This document shows, one piece after another, positions 1 through 28,087 of a DNA stretch of 64,000 nucleotides. The position numbers and the translations under genes were made by a program. Origin of the DNA: Onchidella celtica. Its lineage: Eukaryota > Mollusca > Gastropoda > Systellommatophora > Onchidiidae. The notes below the pieces were generated by a model that was given only the letters and a program-made list of their open reading frames with translations, was not told the origin of the DNA and did not search any database. Location: NCBI GenBank assembly GCA_963931925.1, contig OZ007567.1, positions 91,881,055-91,945,054 on the forward strand. The letters run 5' to 3'. The first letter of the stretch is position 1, and every line of letters starts with the position of its first letter.

Positions 1-277
1 TAAATCAACAAATGTAATACAAACTGCAACAACTAAAACCAGATACATGAATGATAGAGCCGAAATCGCATGTTTGTCTGTAATCAAGACAATAAACAAT
101 CTTGAAGAAAAAGGAAAATAGTTATAAATAATTATGAATAAGACAAAATCGCTTTACTGTAATAATAATACACGGCTCAGACACGATTACGCGCCCAAAC
201 AACAGAGACAGTCAACCCAGATCAAAATAAATAATGTTTGCTATTATCATGAAAATGTAACAGCAGCATCATGGTAA
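1..277. other. Unassigned AT-rich sequence
   Basis: Nothing recognisable on either strand before the first inverted-repeat element; no open frame of note. Confidence 0.5.
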
Positions 278-537
278 TATTCTCGAGGTGTATTTGCCAT
301 GTTGTGTGTGACTTTTTGCCGATTTTGAGATTTTGTCATGAAAGTGATTCTCTCACTCCTGATTTTATTATGAATAAATGTCATTCCAAAGGGTTCAAAA
401 CTTTTCGAGACAATTATGTGTTTGTGACGTAATGTTTTATGTGCCTTAACCCTTTTGCCGACCAAACTTCAATCCTAATTTTATTGAAAAGGCAAAGATG
501 CACATTCAACAATATGGCAAATACCCGACATTATATT
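278..537 (+). mobile_element. Miniature inverted-repeat element, family A, copy 1
   Basis: About 260 bp. The left end reads into GTATTTGCCATGTTG, and the reverse complement of the right end contains GGGTATTTGCCATATTG. The interior shares long blocks with the copies at 33829-34082 and 45190-45450, including TTGCCGACCAAACTTCAAT, the TTTTGTCATGAAAG block and GTGACGTAATGTTTTA. Inverted ends plus dispersed copies of equal length indicate a non-autonomous DNA transposon. There is no coding capacity. The superfamily is not assigned because the exact ends and target-site duplication are unclear. Confidence 0.75.
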
Positions 538-576
538 CTCTCAAAGGCTGGTGATATGACTACCGACTATGCATGA

Positions 577-727
577 AGTGGATGGATCGAATTATCAAAA
601 CTTTTTATAACATTCTAGAACACTCCGAAAGGTAACTATAGATTAAGGTACAACTAATGTGGAGTTTTTATTTCGGATCGCTCTGAAAATTTGATTACGT
701 GAGTTTTGATGATTCAATCCATCCAAT
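577..727. mobile_element. Small inverted-repeat element (about 150 bp)
   Basis: The left end contains TGGATGGATCGAATTATCAA and the reverse complement of the right end contains TGGATGGATTGAATCATCAA, followed in both by AACT. The roughly 24-bp inverted ends differ at only two positions in the compared part. The interior is non-coding. It is likely a MITE; no second copy was noticed and the target-site duplication is not clear. Confidence 0.6.
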
Positions 728-828
728 TTAGACCTTGAAGTTAGAGCAACTTTAAAGCTATTTTAAACTCACCAAAGATTCATTTGCTGACAAAAACACG
801 CGACTGAGCTACATTAACGTTGTTGCTT

Positions 829-963
829 TGTTTCAAGTGACGTCACAAAACTTGTGCTCCTACAAATTTTAGAATTTTATTTCGTCTTTTGTCGGAAGTT
901 ACAGGGCCATATTGCGTTTCGTTTTCCTATTAGTTTCGACTCTTCTTTTTTTGGATTATGGCT
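829..963 (+). repeat. Dispersed repeat, family B, copy 1
   Basis: The segment containing TGTGCTCCTAC, GAATTTTATTTC and CTTTTTTTGGATTA aligns block by block with 55801-55938. Both run TGTGCTCCTAC, then GAATTTTATTTC, then a GTCGGAAG or ATCGGAGG block, GGCCATAT, TTTCGTT and CTTTTTGGATTA. Divergence is moderate. Ends and class are unknown. Confidence 0.6.
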
Positions 964-1908
964 AACATTTGAGAGTTGCACATGCTCAGCCGCCGTGCAC
1001 TAGGGGACGGGCAGGCCGTGGGGTCATCATTACAGGTTTGGATAACTTAGTGAAATATAAACCAATTTACATATAGATGTCATTCAGCTGAAGTTTCCGC
1101 TGTTGTAAATAATTCCAGTTGTTGAAAGAGTACATTGTTTTGTTCAAGATCATTTGAAAACAAACAAACAAACTCGTCCTTTCGTGTTTCACTGATCCAT
1201 ATTTACTGTTATTTCATGTTTATTTCCTTCCCTGTCTTTCCATCTCGATTTCCTTACTTTGCAACAGAATAGTCTTCAAAAGGTATGTTTGCACGTTCTC
1301 AGACACACTTACTCGTCTCTAATCCTTCCCTCCTGTCTTCCCATCCCTATTCGTGTATGAGCTATGCCCTTTACAGAACACAGTCTACCTTATTAATGTA
1401 GAAAATCTAATATTGTATTTATCTTCCTTCTGTTGTGTTTTTATCCGTGTCAAGAGACGTGAAAAAACAACAACAAAAAACGAATACACTGTGCTCATTA
1501 TGTTGCGGATGTTTTGTTAATTTGTCATAGTTATCTTAAGAGGAAGCGTGGCGTTTGCCCCCAAAACTTGGCTCATAAACACACGCTACAAATTGAATTA
1601 TTCCTCCCTCCAGGGATAGAAGAGTGAGTGTATATAATACGATAGACAAAAGTCATCTGTTGAAACAGGAGTAAACGAGATTCCATAAATCAGTCTTTAA
1701 ACGATCGAGCTTCTCCCGGTAAATAGACGGACTTGACAGAGCCGATGCTTTAATTTGGAACAAAACATATTAGCAATCCTCGCATGCATTATCATATAGG
1801 GCTACGTTCAATCAGAGATCCTACAATAACAGATTCTCTGGTTCAATGTACATCTTTCTGTCCCATTTACTGAATAAACGTCAAAGTAACGGTTTGTCGC
1901 AACGGCCC
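964..1908. other. Unassigned sequence
   Basis: AT-rich with short oligo-A and CAAA runs near 1160 and 1460. No gene, RNA or mobile-element signature recognised. Confidence 0.5.
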
Positions 1909-2019
1909 TTGTTAAGGAAACGTTGTCTATGTACAAAGCCGAATAAGAGAAAATATTGAGCTGGGTTCATTATTCAGTTGTAATTTGCAATGTTAAAATG
2001 CCACGCACCCCTAACAACA
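1909..2019. mobile_element. Small foldback element, family C, copy 1
   Basis: Begins TTGTTAAGGAAACG and ends GCACCCCTAACAACA, an imperfect inverted pair. The interior (ACAAAGCCGAATAAGAGAAA, then TATTGAGC and TATTCAG) matches the copy at 20131-20234 in the same order. About 110 bp, non-coding, immediately upstream of a C-rich run and a CT array. Confidence 0.65.
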
Positions 2020-2087
2020 GAGTAGGGGACGGAAAACTGACAAGAACAGACACAGTTTATCCCCCACACCCCACCCCCACCCCCACC

Positions 2088-2090
<3 letters not shown>

Positions 2091-2175
<85 letters not shown>
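2091..2175. repeat. (CT)n microsatellite
   Basis: About 85 bp of uninterrupted CT, preceded by CCCCCAC repeats. It yields spurious long Ser-Leu and Arg-Glu translations on both strands. Confidence 0.98.
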
Positions 2176-2179
<4 letters not shown>

Positions 2180-2242
2180 TAATGTATGGGCAAAAATTGG
2201 ACATTTTTTTCTTCTTTTTTCGTAAAAATAACTCATGGATAT

Positions 2243-2478
2243 TTGTGAGTGGATCTGGCAAACTCGGGCCTAGGTTGAAAAGACAAATATTCCTGAGAAA
2301 ACCACTCCAGAAGGAGAACAGTTTTCTATGGAAATTGTGAAGTCAAAGATTCGCCACTTTTCTGCATTCTCAGTTAAAATATTTTGCTTGAAACCGTCTG
2401 AGAAATATTCTATTTTGATTTTTTAAAGAGGTATAAAAATTTCACATCGAGCCCGATTTCGCCAGATCCACTCACATT
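2243..2478. mobile_element. Inverted-repeat element (about 235 bp)
   Basis: The left end TGTGAGTGGATCTGGCAAAC and the reverse complement of the right end, TGTGAGTGGATCTGGCGAAA, are near-identical, and both continue into TCGGGC. The interior is non-coding. The terminal symmetry is strong and the size typical of a MITE. Flanking T-rich sequence makes the target-site duplication ambiguous. No second copy was noticed. Confidence 0.7.
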
Positions 2479-3189
2479 TTTTATGTCATTACAGTATCAT
2501 CCACTGTCAATAAATGTTTATATCTGACGCTTCTTCAGGCCTGTTCGCTCAACATCAGTCAACGAAACCTGCACAATCTGTACCATCAGAATCTGTTCCC
2601 AACATTGTTAGTTCAAGCACCCTGCAGTAAGATTTATATGGTTATTGTTAAGTTCAGGGTAAAAATTACATAGCTCAAAAGAGAGTAAATACTTTACACT
2701 GTCAACAGGAACTTGGAACAGGAAATGAGAAGTGACTAGAAAATTGAGACAACCATTTTGTCCTATTCTGAAACTGACCTTCCCCCAAGATTATGCCAGG
2801 TTTATCTCATCGTCCTACGTTAAACAAATAGTCAGTTTAGACATCTTCATTATATTTCTTTCTGGAAAGGCCTCACTAAACAGATTTTGCAAATTAAATT
2901 GTGATCAAATTAGGCTTTTTTTCCTCAGAAAGTTGGATGACAGAAAAATTCTGCAATAACCACCACAAACTGCATATTTACTATCTCAAAAGTTATAGAA
3001 GACTCCAAAATATCTAACTGTAGGCCTACATTCTTTATTATGAGTAAATCTGTAGGTTCCTTTGTCCCAAGAGAATTTGGATAATGAGTGGAAGTCTTAT
3101 AGCAGCGACCGGGTCACAAGATCGAAATTTCCGGACGCCTATCCGAGAAGCAACTGTTACTGTCTAATGATGAGGGGAAAGAAAACCCC
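2479..3189. other. Unassigned sequence
   Basis: No supported gene or repeat family seen until the first copy of the 51-bp direct repeat at 3190. Confidence 0.5.
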
Positions 3190-3240
3190 GATAATACCCA
3201 GAATTATTTCTGCCTCCATCCCGATATCGATCTGTAGCTC
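3190..3240 (+). repeat. 51-bp exact direct repeat, copy 1
   Basis: Identical over 51 bases to 3718-3768 (starts GATAATACCCAG, ends GATCTGTAGCTC). Sequence on either side of the two copies is not similar. In one frame both read DNTQNYFCLHPDIDL then a stop. Confidence 0.95.
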
Positions 3241-3470
3241 TGCGACTGTTGACACTTTCCATTACTTCCGCAGACCAAAAAAATTTCTGTAAGTATGTCA
3301 GAGAGGCAGGAAGCGAAAACAAGGGAAAATCTGTCTGTATCACAGAGTCTTAGGAAATGATAATCATTTAGTCTGTCTTGGCTGATAGATTACTGACTGC
3401 CTGGACTGATATAGTGTCTGATGGTCTGTCTGTTCAGTGACAGCCTGGCTAAATGTCTATCTTTTCTTCA

Positions 3471-3594
<124 letters not shown>

Positions 3595-3606
3595 CGACTG
3601 AACAGT

Positions 3607-3768
3607 GCAAGCGCCGTCCGCACAGAGATTTTCAAAGAGTGGTTTGGAGATATTATCACAGAAGGGTACTTTAAGTATGCTGAGGCTACAGAGGACCGTA
3701 AGAGAGCAGAAAGTGTAGATAATACCCAGAATTATTTCTGCCTCCATCCCGATATCGATCTGTAGCTC
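3607..3768 (+). other. Possible terminal exon remnant (weak)
   Basis: After the CT tract and the sequence ending AACAG, the frame reads hydrophilic residues (RTEIFKEWFGDIITEGYF, then KYAEATEDRKRAES) and ends at a TAG inside the second 51-bp repeat. The upstream pyrimidine tract plus AG resembles a 3' splice site. No domain is recognised and the frame is only about 55 codons. It may equally be chance or part of an unclassified transposon. Confidence 0.25.
3718..3768 (+). repeat. 51-bp exact direct repeat, copy 2
   Basis: Exact match to 3190-3240, 528 bp apart, on the other side of the CT tract. Confidence 0.95.
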
Positions 3769-3910
3769 GATGTACAGATATTATTTCATGGACTTCTTTT
3801 CTCTCAACAAGTTATGTTGTGCCATTTTCAAGTCTTTACTCCAGTACTATTAATTCAGCCAAAAATACACGCATTCCCTGTTTAATATAATGTATCCATA
3901 TTGCAATGAA

Positions 3911-4112
3911 GGTGGCCCAGCGTCTAAGGGGTCAAAGTGTTCGATCCAAGTTCGCAAGGGCCTGGGTTCAAAACCCACTTAATACCTCACGATGTTTCGA
4001 ATTCACTCATTCGTCAGTGGCCTGAAAAGGAGAGGGGGGGAGGGAGCCTTAACGACCCTGAGATAACTTGTCTGCTCTGAACAGGGAAGTTAAATCCCAA
4101 CTTAAGCAACAA
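3911..4112 (+). mobile_element. tRNA-derived SINE
   Basis: The head reads GGTGGCCCAGCGTCTAAGG, tRNA-like in the A-box region, and about 50 bp on carries a B-box-like GGGTTCAAAACCC. The tail ends GTTAAATCCCAACTTAAG followed by CAACAACTA. A pol III head with an A-rich tail is the SINE pattern. The cloverleaf is too degenerate for a functional tRNA. Target-site duplication is not clear. Confidence 0.6.
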
Positions 4113-4795
4113 CTACGAAGGAAAGCAAAACAAAACAAAGTAATTATCATACATTGATAATGTGCAGTAAGCACAATAACAGAAAAGCCTGAGGCACCCT
4201 GGTTTCCGAAAACAAAGAACATATTAATAAGGTATTATTTTTACACCAAAAATAACGAAGTTAAATATATTGTTTACTTCCTCTTTTGTATGTCCGCCCA
4301 ACGGGCACGAAGGCAGACCGGAAAAATTTCGCAATTCGTTGAGCGAACTCCTTTAATAAAATAAATCACAATCACCCACACTGAACATCTATAGGCCTAG
4401 AGAGATCATTTAACCGTGAATTCTCTAGTTGTCCGATGTTCTAGTCAATTCTTTCTTTCCCCATTTGGCGTGATTTATTGTTCAAGGTCTTAAAATACTT
4501 GTCTTTTTTATTACTTGAACCCCCTTGAGATTTGCCAGCAGCAGCTATGCTATTTAGATTGTAGTTTTGCCTTTTAAGACGCGACAAGAATAACATCAAA
4601 CTTTCCATTTAAAACTCGCCGCCAGAAATTTCACACTTATAATGATCTCATTCTTCGTCCTAATTTAGAGCGAACTGCCCTTTCCTCAAAGAGCTCAAGC
4701 TTCAGATTTTTAAAAAATGAAACCTCTCGGTGAGTTAAAATATGAGTTTCACTGGAGATGCAACTAGCAAGAATTTAAATAACATCTCTACATAC
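4113..4795. other. Unassigned sequence
   Basis: No recognised feature; short CAAAACAAAA run near 4127. Confidence 0.5.
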
Positions 4796-4908
4796 AGACA
4801 GACAGAGAGAAAGGGGGGGGGAGAGAGACAGAGACTACTTAGAGACAGACAGAGAGAAAGAGGAGGAGGGAGGGAGAGGCACAGAGAGAGTAAGAGAGGG
4901 GGGGGGGA
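4796..4908. repeat. Imperfect purine-rich (GACA/GA/G) simple repeat
   Basis: Mixed CAGA, GAGA and G-run tract on the plus strand, interrupted. Confidence 0.9.
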
Positions 4909-4933
4909 ACTCCTCGAATCGTGAGTCACAATA

Positions 4934-5034
4934 TGGCTAACAGAAAAAGTTGTATGTAGTAAGACCTCGCGTAAGAAATAAAACCGAAGCGACACAATAA
5001 AACGCAAAGGAAAAGTGAAGACAAATCAGACTTT
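4934..5034. mobile_element. Family D repeat, single arm
   Basis: AAAAAGTTGTATGTAGTAAG, then CCTCGCGTAAGAAATAAAACC, a CGA-rich stretch and ATAAAACGCAAA, matches each arm of the foldback element at 37551-37820. It looks like one arm, or a copy lacking its partner, since the inverted partner is not seen nearby. Confidence 0.6.
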
Positions 5035-6189
5035 CGGTATATAGAAGCCTTCATCGAAAGGTGACAGCGTAGCAGCACGGGTTAACGATGGAATAGTACA
5101 TAGCAATATATCTCGCACACAGTTTGGTCCAACTCATAGGTGGACTGTATCGCTGGTGATCGCTGAGTGATACAGTTCAAAGTACTGGTATGAACGTTTG
5201 CTAATGGTAAACGCCTAGAGCTGGAGGTGTCAAAATGTTAAAATTATTTCACCAGACACTGAAGAATATTTTCTTAACCAGGTGGCCGTAGAAATGTCGA
5301 TTGGTGCCATAGTTCGCAGGTAGTTATCTTACACAGGTGGTGGAATGTCCAGGTTTAGGAAAGCAGTGTTGCTAATAGCGTGTACTTAACTATCTGCTGA
5401 CATGGACCAAGTAAATAAACAGCTGCTTAAGTAGCAATATCCAGCAACATGGTTCGTGCCAAACTCTTTAATACTGGAAAATGCTAAACGTGTGGTCTGA
5501 GAAAATCCCCTTTCAATCTCCACATGTGGAAAGTTCTGATTCCGGTGGATGCCAGATTTTGACGCGCGTGTAGGCTAAATTAAGTCCTGAAACATACATT
5601 AACATTACATCTGACCCTATTTTTGCACATGTATACGGCTAAAACGCATGCCATGGCAGGGGCGAAAAAGAAATTTAAAAACAACCATGAAATGAGAAAG
5701 GGGGCATTTCGTTCTCTTTATAACTTCCCGGGGTGCCCAAATTAACAAAGAAAGCAGCCAATGTGCCCACTTTAAATAATAAGACGAATGAAGAACCACT
5801 GGCTTCTTGTGCGTAAATTAGTCGAAGTGCCACTCCAAGAGCGAAAATATCATTAATTCTTTTCACAGTGGGAGTAGTATTGTGCAAACATTTTTTTTTT
5901 TTTACACGAGTCTTAGTTAGTACATGTAAAAATATAATTTGAGATTGTGTATTACCAAAAACATGTAACAACAACAATGACAGCATATATAATAGTAACA
6001 GAGACTTAAGAGTGCGGAATACCAATCCATAACCATGATAATTACAGAGAGACGTTATTGGACAGCAGCAGCTGATGAAGACAGCGGAGAGCAATGTTTG
6101 ATACAATGACATGAAATAAGACAAATACAGTTTTACTGATTTTCAGTTAAGTTGTCTGCTGTTTTGCTGGGATTTAATGTCCATTTTCA
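5035..6189. other. Unassigned sequence
   Basis: A minus-strand open frame of 149 codons spans 5675-6124 but shows no motif or domain and runs through poly-T/A. I see no supported gene. Confidence 0.5.
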
Positions 6190-6370: not shown

Positions 6371-9239
6371 CTTTGGTATAGCTGCTACACCGTCTATGCA
6401 ACACGACCCACTTTGGTGTAGACAGCGCGGCTAAAACGACCAGCCGTGACCTTTGACTATAGAATAGCAAAGTCTGTCTTACGAGACATCAGTGTCGGGC
6501 TTTATTCAGAGGGTTGTAACTTATACATGCTCATATTTATATTACACATTACTATATATACATCAAGGAGTTTCCCAGAGGCATGTTTATAGTTGCCATA
6601 AATATTTGGTCAAGTTATTCCCCTTACCTGTTGTAAGATGCCAGGGAAACCTGTAGATTTTCAAGGCAATTCTGCAACAAAAAGCGCTTTGACTAGCGTT
6701 TCCTGTCGGAATTTCCAGCTCCAGTATATTTATTGTCAACCTAAATAATGAACAAGGATAGATTAAAAATCGATCTAGCTCTCCTACAGCCATGTAAAGG
6801 AAGATTCACTGACACATGAAGAATAATGATTACAAAAACGCTATTCTGACCTCAATTAAATTTTGGTTAACACACAAGACATTCAACTGAACACTTATCG
6901 ATTTATAAAGTGTTATGTTAAACAAGCCTGTAACAATTGTTTTTAGCCTAAATTGAAAAGAAACAACAACACTTAATACACATTAAAACCGAGTAAATAC
7001 ACCTTAAACAATAGATTGGCAGACTGGCGTCCAAATTTTAGGTAAGGCTGATGGCCATCTGAGCTACGTCTATTTTGTCTCTGCTTTTGACTCAGTGTGT
7101 GACGTCTCTCCTTCCATCACCTGATTCAAGACAGTTTTGATGCACCCGAGGCTTGGGTTTCGGTCTTGCCAGTGCGGGGGCACCTTACAACACCACAATT
7201 CTCATCTCACACTATAACCGAGACAAAAAAGACTGCGCTGCCTGCCTGAATATTTGAAAGATTCAGTTTCATGTTTGCCTGAGGCATCTCAGCTTTCGTT
7301 CAACAGTCCAATTCTCTGGCCTGGGGGGGGGGGGGGAGACCTTATTGTAGTATGTGAAGTAACTGCAGTAAGACTAAGCTTTATAGCTTTATGCTGTGTC
7401 GCAATACGCAATACCAGATAATGATCAAAACAATTCAGTAGTTGACGCAACAGGACCTCCTAACCTACAAGTCAATTGTGCCAGACCATATTCTATTTCC
7501 AGGCGGTACGTCTAGACAGAACTCTGGGACCTTTTGAAGCCCTTGGCGTGTCTTGGTGACTGTATTATATTTGGTACATAACAGAGGAGTTTCCATTCTA
7601 TCACGTCCGGAAAGGGCTCATACACTAGGGATGACCAGACGTACACCATGACAAAAACCGGGATAAGTCAAATATGATAATAGTCCGTTGTCATATCCTA
7701 CAGATTTTAAACAACTGTACCAAGCTCGTAAGTTGTTTATATATGTGTTGCTAATTACTATATTTCATGCCTGGCCATAATAACAGTATGTGCAGAGCAT
7801 TTTTAGTACTGTCTTGCTGTTTTCTTTGCCTTTTATACCGTGCTTTGTCACAGTCTACGTAAACCTATATATAGGGCAGTGTCTCACATTATTATGGCAT
7901 AGGGCCTCCAGCAAGAAAGATCACCGATGTTCACCAACTCCGAATGCTTCTCTATCATGAATACGGTGGAAAGAACTCGCTTTTTGTTCCCCATCCATCA
8001 TCAGTTTTGCTAAATATCTCCCCATTGAAATAAGATAATACAAAGAGTTATTTTTATTCCTAATTCGTCATTCTGTGATAAACATAGAACAGGAGGCATT
8101 GCTTAGAAACTTATGAAATAACAAGTAATTTCTTGTCTCTGAGCTCAAAGAATATTCGTGATATGAGAATAATAAAGTTACCACAACTTTTTGTCAAAGT
8201 CGAAAGTTAAACTCGTTTTTCTCATTTCACGCCTAATCGATTTATTCGCTCAGCATGGCTGAAAAAAAGAAGGAAAAAAAGCCAAATAATAAAAAACAAA
8301 CACCAAACCCCTTAGGAATGTCATGGCATCAGGCACGAAGGTTTTACATCAATTAGATCTATCATGTTTCATGTTTATCAAAGCTATCTCTTCTCAGTTT
8401 TTTAAAACTGAACCGCACCAATTCAGAGGTAAAGAGCTTAAAATAAACTTACAATAATCGTAACTCACAATTTTAGTGGCCGTCCTCGACAAATCGACAC
8501 CAGAGACAAAAATACTGAACATCTCAAATACCTTAAGTTACTCTTGGGATAGTCTCGAAGTTACAATATTATGTAGGGTCGGTTAAATAAAAGTTTAGAT
8601 ATTTGGAGGTCTTTTATTTGGCTCTCTCGGTAATCTTACACTGTCAGGCTCCACACTCCAGCTGTATATCCTATTTATGATTAACTTTCTCAGTCAACAA
8701 CATGACGTAAAAACCTGAATGTTGTTTGGCTAAATATTTAGGTTGGGCATCTGCGAGTCACTGCTTGCTAATGAATCTCGTTTCTGTAAATTTTGTTGTT
8801 TATTTGTTTATTTTGAGCTCATTTTACCAGATTTTTTCTCTTTTCAAACGCGAGTTGTTTATGGAAGTGCGTTTGGTATGACACACTTCGTCCACGAGAT
8901 TTTGGCGAAGCTGATAACCTAAATTTCATGCTCTGTTTCTTCTGGCGTAAACTCTCACAACAAATACTCGTATAAGCAAAAAGCAAATAATTTCAATCCC
9001 TCGTTCACTTATTCTATTACATCTTACAGCTGTTATCTGCGAATCCCACACACGACACAGGTAATGTTCAATATTTCAAAATGTACATCAGAAATATAAA
9101 ATTTTTCTCCCATCTTTTCAAGAAGGTACGAATTATCCCTAGACTCAGATTTCAACTTTTCAATCTCGAGTTTTGTTATACCTTACAGCTGTTGTCCATA
9201 AATCTCACACATGACATTGATTACATTCATCTTATAAAA
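6371..9239. other. Unassigned sequence, 2.9 kb
   Basis: Holds a 14-base G run at 7323-7336. A short segment at 7627-7665 (TAGGGATGACCAGACGT, then ACCGGGATAA) resembles the start of known animal DNA transposons, without a matching right end. A diverged local duplication lies at 8990-9232. No gene recognised. Confidence 0.45.
8990..9232. repeat. Diverged tandem duplication
   Basis: TTTCAATC...TTACAGCTGTTATCTG...CCCACACACGACA at about 8991-9070 is repeated in order as TTTCAATC...TTACAGCTGTTGTCCA...CTCACACATGACA at about 9158-9232. Confidence 0.5.
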
Positions 9240-13036: not shown

Positions 13037-13166
13037 TTGGAAAGTGGATTTTTCTCATATTTTCAAGTCCCTGGTCCTATTGGGGGGTAGGATCGAGTAG
13101 TTCTTGGAAATTGGATTTTTCTCATATTTTCAAGTCCCTGGTCCTATTGGGGGGTAGGATCGAGTA
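13037..13166 (+). repeat. 67-bp tandem duplication inside the SINE
   Basis: Two consecutive units start TTGGAAAGTGGATTTTTCTC and TTGGAAATTGGATTTTTCTC and both end GGGGGGTAGGATCGAGTA; almost identical. Confidence 0.95.
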
Positions 13167-25327: not shown

Positions 25328-25484
25328 TAAAACTGTGTTTTCATTCATGTGTACGGAAAAAATCGAAATTCCATGAAGTAGTAAAAAAGTACTGGAATGG
25401 TGTTTGGTACACGTTAACACATTCTTTCTACTTTGTTATTGAAGGGTTTTCGCCATTTCCGTACATTTGAAAACCTCTCCCTAA
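25328..25484. mobile_element. Foldback MITE, family E, diverged copy
   Basis: AAACTGTGTTTTCATTCATG with TGTACGGAAA at the left, and CCATTTCCGTACATTTGAAA with ACC at the right, are the family E tips in a decayed form. Confidence 0.5.
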
Positions 25485-25893
25485 ACCCCACTCCAAACCT
25501 GCTCATATGAACTGCAAGACCCGCACACAAACACAGACTGCTAGAACAACATCTCATGCAGTAAACGACCACGGTATACGGCCTGTAGGAAAGAGATAAC
25601 CCCGACTTATCACAAACACAGTGCCGTAATGATGCTGATCATTACAAGCCTCCTGTTACCAAACAGGCTGAGAAAAGCCAGGGATAATCAACTGGAGCCG
25701 GCCAATAATATTATTCTTGCGGCATTGACAATTACAGAGCCAGAAAATTATACTGGGCCGACAGTGAACACATGATCGCTGCGTGAACACCATCTCAGTC
25801 GATACCAGGAAGGGTTGCTCATTATGATAGAGTCGGAATCGAGCGAATAATGGAACCAATATCTTCGATATTCCTCTTCGGAATTATAATCAG
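25485..25893. other. Unassigned sequence
   Basis: No recognised feature. Confidence 0.5.
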
Positions 25894-25894
25894 A

Positions 25895-25918
25895 GTATGT
25901 ATGTATGTATGTATGTAT
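25895..25918 (+). repeat. (GTAT)n microsatellite, short
   Basis: Six TATG-type units immediately before the first retrotransposon 3' end. Confidence 0.95.
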
Positions 25919-26141
25919 CTAGGCATGGAAGCAGCGATGTAAACACCATTTCAAAGCTATTGATTTTTAACACCTTACTGAACAAGCCCTACTGTGCAAC
26001 TCTTGAGTTCCCATCTTTCACAGACAGCCTTCCATCTACTCCTAGCCTATCACAGCCACAATTTCCACACAGATGCAATGTTTATTTATATTGTATCAGT
26101 ACATGCAATTGTAATGTATTTCAGTGGAAATAAAGACCCTA
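25919..26141 (+). mobile_element. LINE 3' end inserted in TATG repeat, unit 1
   Basis: A 223-bp unique block bounded on both sides by TATG repeat. It ends TGTATTTCAGTGGAAATAAA then GACCCTA before the microsatellite. The ending parallels the 3' end of the endonuclease-coding unit (TGTATTTTATGGAAATAAAC at 27373-27392). That pattern marks it as a heavily 5'-truncated copy of a related element. Confidence 0.6.
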
Positions 26142-26213
26142 GTATGTATGTATGTATGTATGTATGTATGTATGTATGTATGTATGTATGTATGTATGTA
26201 TGTATGTATGTAT
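26142..26213 (+). repeat. (TATG)n microsatellite
   Basis: Eighteen perfect tetranucleotides between LINE-like units 1 and 2. Confidence 0.98.
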
Positions 26214-26393
26214 TTCTCATTACAATGCATGTTGGTTACTCCATACACTATATTACTATTATACAGTTTCATTGCATTACACTATTTAGGTTGTTGGTAT
26301 GCTTGTAAGCTGATATATTATGTTGAATATGTGATTATGCAATTGGATTGTTCATTGCATGTAAAAAATCATATAGTCAATAAAATTCTCGAA
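26214..26393 (+). mobile_element. LINE-like 3' end in TATG repeat, unit 2
   Basis: A 180-bp block between two TATG arrays. It ends CATATAGTCAATAAAATTCT then CGAA before the next array, an AATAAA signal shortly before the microsatellite as in units 1 and 3. No coding sequence. Confidence 0.5.
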
Positions 26394-26467
26394 GTATGTA
26401 TGTATGTATGTATGTATGTATGTATGTATGTATGTATGTATGTATGTATGTATGTATGTATGTATGT
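26394..26467 (+). repeat. (TATG)n microsatellite
   Basis: Perfect array abutting the 5' truncation point of the coding LINE fragment. Confidence 0.98.
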
Positions 26468-27225
26468 GGAAAGCCAAGAAATCTCAGGGACGTATTTTAC
26501 GGGAATCCGCCAACATCGATCATTCTCTCTCGAACTCATTCTGGACAAACCACAACATTCCGGACAAAATAAGAACTTTTATCACTAAGGGACGATTACA
26601 ATTACTTCCATGTGAAAGCTTAATGAGTCTTTACTATCCTAATGTGTATTCCAAAAAATGTAAACTTTGTAACCATCCTACAGAAACTGCCTCACATATT
26701 TTAAATGGATGCACAAAATTCAAGACCATGTATCAGAAGCGACACAACAGAATTGTTAACTTTATAACAAACAAAATTAAAGGAAACAGCATCAACAATA
26801 AAATTGTCCTTTTGGGTACGCCCCTCACGCCAGCAATTTTTCAGTCTAGTAATACATCCTTCAACCACTCACAAAACAGACCGGATATCACAGTCATAGA
26901 CCCAGATAATAAGGCAGTAAAGCTTGTTGAACTATCTATCCCATTCGATGCCTTCATTGACAGGTGCTATCAGTCGAAATTTGATAAATACTATCCCTTG
27001 TCTCTGGAAATTAATTCACTAGGATATCATTGTGAAATAATTCTTTTGATCTTTGGTTCATTAGTTCACGTCCACAAGAGAGTAAAAAGTGGACTATGTA
27101 AACTTGGCCTCAGTAAAATTGAAGCAAAATTTATAGCAAAATACTGCAGTGTTGGCAGTGGCATAGGCTCTTTTAACGTATGGAAGCTGAGAGCAAGAAA
27201 GTACGACAGAGGTAGTTTAGCATAA
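26468..27225 (+). pseudogene. LINE ORF C-terminus: CCHC motif and PD-(D/E)XK-type endonuclease
   Basis: About 252 codons without a stop, after a run of Met-Tyr-Val-Cys codons that come only from the microsatellite. Counting from 26404 as residue 1, it shows a C-x2-C-x8-H-x4-C knuckle (C86, C89, H98, C103), then KRHN (112-115). The endonuclease signature follows: R159-P160-D161, then fourteen residues to E176 in the VELSIP stretch, and KYYPL further on. This order is the C-terminus of R2-like retrotransposons, where the endonuclease nicks the target DNA. Reverse transcriptase and the N-terminal DNA-binding part are missing. The intact frame and catalytic residues suggest recent insertion. Confidence 0.8.
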
Positions 27226-27401
27226 AGTGAAATAATATTGTATTAACTCTAATATTTTACCAGAGAAGAAGATTTGGAGAGCAAGAATGAAAAGGACCAT
27301 AGCATGTATTTCCGCTTCTGTACAATGTGAAGTTTTGTTTTTCCAATAAGATATTGGACGGGTACATTTGACATGTATTTTATGGAAATAAACAAATTTG
27401 A
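26468..27401 (+). mobile_element. 5'-truncated LINE with restriction-like endonuclease, in TATG repeat
   Basis: The unit starts in mid-ORF directly after a TATG array. It carries the C-terminal part of a retrotransposon polyprotein to 27225, then a 3' UTR with GGAAATAAAC, and ends in a second, longer TATG array. There is no poly-A tail. The arrangement fits target-primed reverse transcription into a TATG site, using the microsatellite as the tail. The coding motifs place it with the R2/NeSL/R4-type LINEs that have a restriction-like endonuclease; the clade is not assigned. Confidence 0.75.
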
Positions 27402-27620
27402 TATGTATGTATGTGTGTATGTATGTATGTATGTATGTATGTATGTATGTATGTATGTATGTATGTATGTATGTATGTATGTATGTATGTATGTATGTAT
27501 GTATGTATGTATGTATGTATGTATGTATGTATGTATGTATGTATGTATGTATGTATGTATGTACGTATGTATGTATGTATGTAAGTATGTATGTATGTAT
27601 GTATATATGTGTATATATGT
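27402..27620 (+). repeat. (TATG)n microsatellite, long
   Basis: About 219 bp of TATG with few interruptions, directly following the LINE 3' end. Confidence 0.98.
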
Positions 27621-27643
27621 ATGGATGGATCCATCCATCCATC

Positions 27644-27732
<89 letters not shown>

Positions 27733-28087
27733 ATATCTATCTATCTATCTATCTATCTACCTATCACATGAATCCATCCATCCATCTTTTAGTCATTCTA
27801 TCCATTCATTCATCCATCCATTCATCCACCCATCCATCCATCCATCCATCCATCCATCCATCCATCCATCCATCCATCCATCCATCCATCCATCCATCCA
27901 TCCATCCATCCATCCATCCAACCATCCACATGAATCCACCCATACATCCGCTCGCGCACTTATCCGTCTGTCCATCAAATGGATCCACCCATACATTCAT
28001 CCATTCTCTCACCTATCTGTCCATCCAATTATTCATCTGGCTGTCTCTCAATCTATCCGTCCATCCATCCATTCGTCCATCCATCTA
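27621..28087. repeat. Compound (GGAT), (CTAT)n and (CATC)n array
   Basis: GGAT/ATCC short palindromic switch at 27622-27643, then CTAT repeats to about 27765. CATC repeats follow from 27771, perfect between about 27832 and 27920 and imperfect to 28087. Together with the preceding TATG array it makes a continuous tetranucleotide block of nearly 700 bp. Confidence 0.97.

Follow-up and report, generated by a model that had tools for sequence, protein, structure and literature searches.

The window copy and its surroundings

The window, by which we mean the whole stretch of DNA analysed (64,000 nucleotides, C1:91881055-91945054), contains a truncated copy of a LINE family that we call A, lodged between two arrays of TATG (Table 1). 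The original prediction had described an ORF broken off at its 5' side directly against a TATG array, with a second array adjoining the element at its 3' side, and both statements were borne out: the copy begins at an internal position of the full-length element (Table 1), and the first codon of its open frame overlaps the array. The further statement that there was no other flanking DNA held only in part; TATG does adjoin the element on both sides, but just upstream lie fragments of two other families, D2 and B, each set between TATG arrays. Downstream of the copy (window 27629-27928), the TATG units give way to TATC and ATCC arrays; a TATG-to-TATC transition was seen again at several other copies. 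The DNA upstream of the arrays (25400-25895) had other matches in the genome of at most 74 bases, at 80-84% identity; since the genome lacks a long second copy of this left flank, an empty site of the window copy itself was not found.

Table 1. Features of the window around the family A copy
Feature	Position	Strand	Basis
Short TATG array, read as left remainder of the target microsatellite	25896-25920	+	Repeat reading
Family B LINE 3' end, 5'-truncated	25921-26140	+	98.6% to B copy L083
TATG array separating families B and D	26142-26213	+	Repeat reading
Family D2 LINE 3' end, 5'-truncated	26214-26393	+	98.9% to D2 in L021
TATG array, 5' flank of family A copy	26394-26467	+	18.5 perfect copies
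Family A LINE copy, 5'-truncated, without poly-A	26468-27401	+	Corresponds to positions 2603-3542 of 3542
C-terminal ORF piece (zinc knuckle and predicted restriction-like endonuclease), including stop	26467-27225	+	Open frame
CCHC zinc knuckle, residues 65-82	26659-26712	+	Motif, alignment of relatives
RPD...E signature of predicted restriction-like endonuclease, residues 138-155	26878-26931	+	Motif, relatives, profile
TATG array, 3' flank of family A copy	27402-27627	+	57 copies, 93% matches

The encoded protein and its kinship

The ORF piece had been predicted to carry a CCHC knuckle and an RPD...E endonuclease signature. Both are there, the knuckle as C-x2-C-x8-H-x4-C and the signature from residue 138, and C65, C68, H77, C82, P139, D140, and E155 were invariant in six relatives. 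Pfam gave zf-RVT for the window piece with an E value of 5.4e-5, under the curated cut-off. When the window protein alone was compared with PDB, pyranose oxidases (E 0.006) and R2 (E 0.007) scored about equally, and only the profile separates them; the profile of CCHC plus restriction-like endonuclease (RLE) matched R2Tg (PDB 9dou) with E 1.4e-8, and 9nl3 as well, in agreement with the endonuclease type originally proposed. The reverse transcriptase (RT) is absent from the window copy, lost through truncation. That of family B matched PF00078 (RVT_1) with E 9.9e-27, and in PDB its best match was R2 (E 8.9e-23), with LINE-1 ORF2 at E 5e-10. Judged from these sequence matches, a CCHC knuckle and a predicted PD-(D/E)XK endonuclease lie downstream of the RT, as in the R2 group, a group name that here implies no placement relative to R4, NeSL, or HERO, R2 being the only RLE-group reference proteins used. 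A single-sequence structure model of the window protein (pLDDT 32) was left unused.

The long copies that we translated (L022, L028, and L083) have broken frames, and the order of their pieces suggests a single ORF. The zinc-finger motif C-x2-4-C-x6-20-H-x2-6-H/C was absent from the N-terminal 330 residues of family A (L028) and 337 residues of family B (L083), and no Pfam domain was found in the family B N-terminus. A Rfam search for an HDV-like ribozyme at E up to 1, which divergent ribozymes can escape, gave no match in L022 or L028; L083, scanned without its first bases and hence not over its 5' end, gave none either. Families A and B have a common 5' start, CAAGATGGCGG, which we take to resemble a YY1-type initiator as in human L1.

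Copies of family A

The genome (1.14 Gb, 43 contigs) was searched with a 758-base coding piece of family A. This yielded 523 first-look candidates, of which 40 were scored; among these 40, the long matches were 96-100% identical to the query. Our copy sample consisted of the 20 top copies after the window copy, ranked by the score of the coding-piece match with their flanks ignored. A full-length family A element has 3542 bases (about 3.54 kb) in L022; in this copy, in the other full-length copy (L028), and in an interrupted one (L012), the element starts with TTCCGGTTCAAGATG directly behind a TATG array. An 88-bp unit comprising the stop codon and the start of the 3' UTR is present once in the window (27190-27280). 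Elsewhere, motif counts give up to 16 tandem units, with arrays of them at about 6740-8160 in L025 and about 6740-8430 in L027 (element orientation); the copies that differ in this way have coding parts about 97-98% identical.

5' flanks

Among the 19 assessable copies of the sample, 17 had TATG at the 5' junction, so that the surroundings of other copies were mostly not the random sequence that would have spoken against the original prediction. L019 was left out of this count for an assembly gap of 5000 N at its junction; at that locus (2-5714, element orientation), a TATG array of 712 bp leads into the gap, as if the microsatellite had broken the assembly. TATG was found in L010, L011, L012, L013, L015, L016, L018, L020, L022, L025, L026, and L028. 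The others were a degenerate array (L014), one unit behind a family-D end (L017), TATG with a 13-bp filler (L021), an array of 11 bp only (L027), and one reached by tracing the copy over two interruptions (L024). L009 and L023 had no TATG at the 5' junction. Three additional family A 5' ends were read outside this count: about 30 bp (L069) and about 8 bp (L070) separated TATG from the element, and L071 lay within a TAGG array.

Family B was found at 67% identity. Each of its 12 exact 5' starts in the genome lies at TATG, 11 of them directly so, some with an imperfect last unit. In the twelfth, at L018, a 67-bp piece of family A stands between TATG and the B start. This piece (8625-8693) is perhaps a template-switch filler.

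3' ends

The 19-mer at the 3' end of family A occurred exactly 204 times in the genome, and in 112 of these it was followed by ATATGTATG; with the pattern read backwards, both of these family A searches gave 0. Family D had 335 exact ends, 250 of them followed by R and TATGTATG. We examined 99 of the 100 sites listed on C1-C9 (C9:30930116 was unread) out of the 204. At least two TATG units lay within 40 nt at 84 of the 99 (52 by pattern and 32 of the 47 that were read), so that the 3' flanks of other copies agreed with what had been predicted; the background rate, measured over window positions on both strands, was 1.3%. The remaining 15 comprised eight with a single TATG unit, among which L063 and L064 have an identical flank, two running into TATC arrays, and five with no clear unit. 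Poly-A was found behind none of the family A ends whose flanks were read, and poly-A endings of other copies, another observation that would have contradicted the original prediction, were thus not seen among the 3' ends read; insertion primed on poly-A was rejected on the same ground.

The linker between the terminal TTTG and the first unit, in the 47 ends read, was A in 24, G in 10, T in four, nothing in four, C in one, TG in one, and something else in three. An array of fixed phase joined through a variable base is better accounted for by a nick at one phase of the repeat than by a copied tail. Array lengths, measured in 16 of 21 copies, had medians of 43.5 bp on the left and 38 bp on the right; the two sides being alike in length is unlike what a grown tail would give.

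Orientation, stacking, and related families

In the 20 loci and the window together, TATG was on the sense strand of the element in all 59 merged arrays. Exact TATG runs of at least five units were 52 sense versus 0 antisense in the 20 loci and 4 versus 0 in the window. TATC runs were one-sided too (22 versus 0 in the 20 loci), but they often adjoin TATG and therefore provide no independent control.

Behind many TATG arrays lies the truncated start of another, related element, and in this genome TATG stands at the end of at least seven related families. Pairwise identity of the endonuclease domains was 36-71% among families A, B, D1, D2, E, F, and G, leaving aside row A_L015, which had been read in a wrong frame. 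In L083, the TATG array behind B is followed by the start of a further family, C. Clustering was assessed with 81 of the 84 A ends listed on C1-C7 and 99 of the 100 D ends listed, with a cut near C7:49.4 Mb. A D end lay within 6 kb of 24 of the 81 A ends, where random placement expects 0.18 and reached a maximum of 4 in 2000 trials. Close pairs were on the same strand in 58 of 59 cases (A-D 32/33, A-A 6/6, and D-D 20/20), the exception being one A-D pair on opposite strands; a single local tandem repeat at C3:4.697 Mb accounts for three of the six A-A pairs.

An empty site

Arrays were also sampled without regard to elements, by means of a left flank GCC(TATG)5, which occurs 11 times in the genome. 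An A or F element followed directly in six of the 11, including L088 and L094, which are one duplicated insertion; in the other five, no match to the eight-piece family library was found in the approximately 900 bp read. At C14:52.52 Mb we found an empty site; in its filled paralogues at C7:54 kb and C15:604 kb, the TATG array contains about 2 kb of a truncated family-F element. Empty and filled left flanks were 96.7-96.8% identical over 841-845 aligned columns and right flanks 99.2-99.3% identical over 834 columns, with the first 300 bp past the simple repeats identical in all three paralogues. The left flanks of C7 and C15 are 99.9% identical and the 5' truncation is common to both, indicating that they represent one insertion that was later duplicated. 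The paralogues belong to a segmental duplication near contig ends, with members L093/L097/L100 (C14, 60 kb from the end), L088/L095/L098 (C7, 54 kb from the start), and L094/L096/L099 (C15, 0.6 Mb from the start).

The presence of the same array in the empty paralogue indicates that, for family F, TATG is a pre-existing target and not only a tail. The filled/empty pair found belongs to family F; none was found for family A. Together with the 5' and 3' flanks of other copies, the family-F site supports the proposal, put forward in the original prediction, that the family targets (TATG)n.

Proposed mechanism and alternatives

We conclude, with a probability of about 0.9, that the window copy is a 5'-truncated RLE non-LTR retrotransposon of the R2 group, belonging to a lineage specific for TATG microsatellites and inserted in the following manner. 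The endonuclease of the element would nick the bottom strand of (TATG)n at a fixed phase, 5'-CATA^CATA-3', with some part of the protein presumably recognising TATG, and the freed 3' end would prime reverse transcription directly at the non-polyadenylated 3' terminus of the RNA, the joint often gaining one extra variable nucleotide. Where reverse transcription was incomplete, the copy would be truncated at its 5' side and joined there to the array's other half. With array remaining on both sides the target would not be consumed, so that related families could re-insert in the same arrays and in the same orientation, producing head-to-tail stacks. For the top-strand cut, microhomology at truncated joints allows several phases, and a target-site duplication is unreadable inside a repeat.

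If, instead, elements had inserted at random and carried or grown a (TATG)n tail at their 3' ends, the 5' arrays would be the tails of older elements. Such tails would account for the fixed phase at which the family ends seen meet TATG and for the many 5' arrays that do follow the 3' end of another family, and LINEs ending in simple repeats exist, TAA in the I element and TGTAA in UnaL2 according to PMC3747384. They would not account for the TATG array in the paralogue that lacks the element, which contradicts this explanation for family F, nor for 5' arrays behind DNA without a recognised element 3' end, as in L013, L015, L024, L026, and at window 25896. Moreover, the array is preceded by different bases (A, G, T, C, or none), as in a joint and unlike a copied tail, and right arrays were not longer than left ones at the median. 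We therefore consider tails of this kind very improbable as the source of the arrays.

An explanation by survival, in which TATG arrays are merely the places where otherwise random insertions persisted, or by open chromatin, seems to us scarcely credible. Microsatellites are probably harmless sites, and counts of fixed copies are compatible with selection against insertions elsewhere; neither selection nor open chromatin, however, would yield an orientation fixed relative to the repeat in all 59 arrays, close pairs almost always on one strand (58 of 59), or a fixed 3' phase. Trans-mobilisation, in which the enzyme of one family cuts for several, is a variant compatible with the mechanism proposed above and not a competitor of it. 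The 3' phase common to the families and the 5' start that A and B have in common would suit it, but copies with an endonuclease-coding region of the family's own exist in every one of A, B, D1, D2, E, F, and G; cross-use is compatible even with this, and we regard trans-mobilisation as unlikely, though less so than the two preceding explanations.

To a broader picture we give an even chance: in this one genome, a minimum of seven R2-group LINE families would form a guild specialised on one tetranucleotide microsatellite, with a large part of the TATG arrays of the genome occupied by them. Target recognition would need no N-terminal zinc finger, the two strands would be cut at one phase of the repeat, and the niche would stay open through the usable target that every insertion leaves on both sides.

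Relation to known elements

Telomeric-repeat LINEs of the TRAS/SART type, too, have a short tandem repeat as their target, and their copies stack there without exhausting it. They resemble the present families in these two respects and differ in having an AP-type endonuclease, a poly-A tail, and a telomeric target. In RT and in the CCHC-plus-RLE part, the closest counterpart that we aligned is R2 (e.g., R2Tg, PDB 9dou). R2 inserts in 28S rRNA genes, a target not encountered here, where the flanks are TATG, and one to three zinc fingers can be present at its N-terminus, as stated in PMC7650587, whereas no such motif was found in A or B.

Insertion of RLE LINEs in microsatellites is itself a known mode; the likenesses that follow concern endonuclease type and target. 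Microsatellite repeats are given as the insertion sites of DongAg and DongBg (PMC3636483), and the 5' junction of Bombyx Dong was amplified with a TAA-repeat primer (PMC3774820). Dong, of the R4 clade, is thus like family A an RLE LINE in a microsatellite, but its target in Bombyx is TAA and not TATG, and its RNA self-cleaves by an HDV-like ribozyme at the 5' end (PMC3774820); the Rfam search, which divergent ribozymes can escape, showed none in the loci with full-length family A copies. Togen of fish, an RLE LINE specific for (TG)n, likewise shares microsatellite specificity but not the repeat, and its position relative to NeSL and HERO is left unsettled in PMC4640811. The same paper describes HERO elements, also RLE LINEs, as including some microsatellite-specific families, citing a report on a leech family, and many without site specificity. 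A LINE with a TATG target was not found in the open-access literature searched. What sets the present elements apart from those known is the TATG target, the sharing of that target by several families, and the lack of a recognisable N-terminal zinc finger.

The system offers a microsatellite-specific RLE retrotransposon in many similar copies, with fixed orientation and 3' phase and a filled/empty pair. Target recognition without the N-terminal zinc finger of the R2 type thereby becomes testable, and the system is a useful case for the study of target choice by enzymes of this kind. In part, it also accounts for the repeated sequence that flanks (TATG)n arrays in this genome, which is relevant to marker design and assembly.

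Other matches at TATG arrays

Rfam matches to mir-297 were located on TATG arrays, under the gathering score, and were rejected. A tRNA-like short repeat with a box-B-like GGTTCGAAACC, recognised by eye, was seen at about 300-460 in L086, at 1-200 in L073, and at 13037-13166 in the window. In two loci it is close to TATG, and its tail is similar to the 67-bp tandem repeat of the window.
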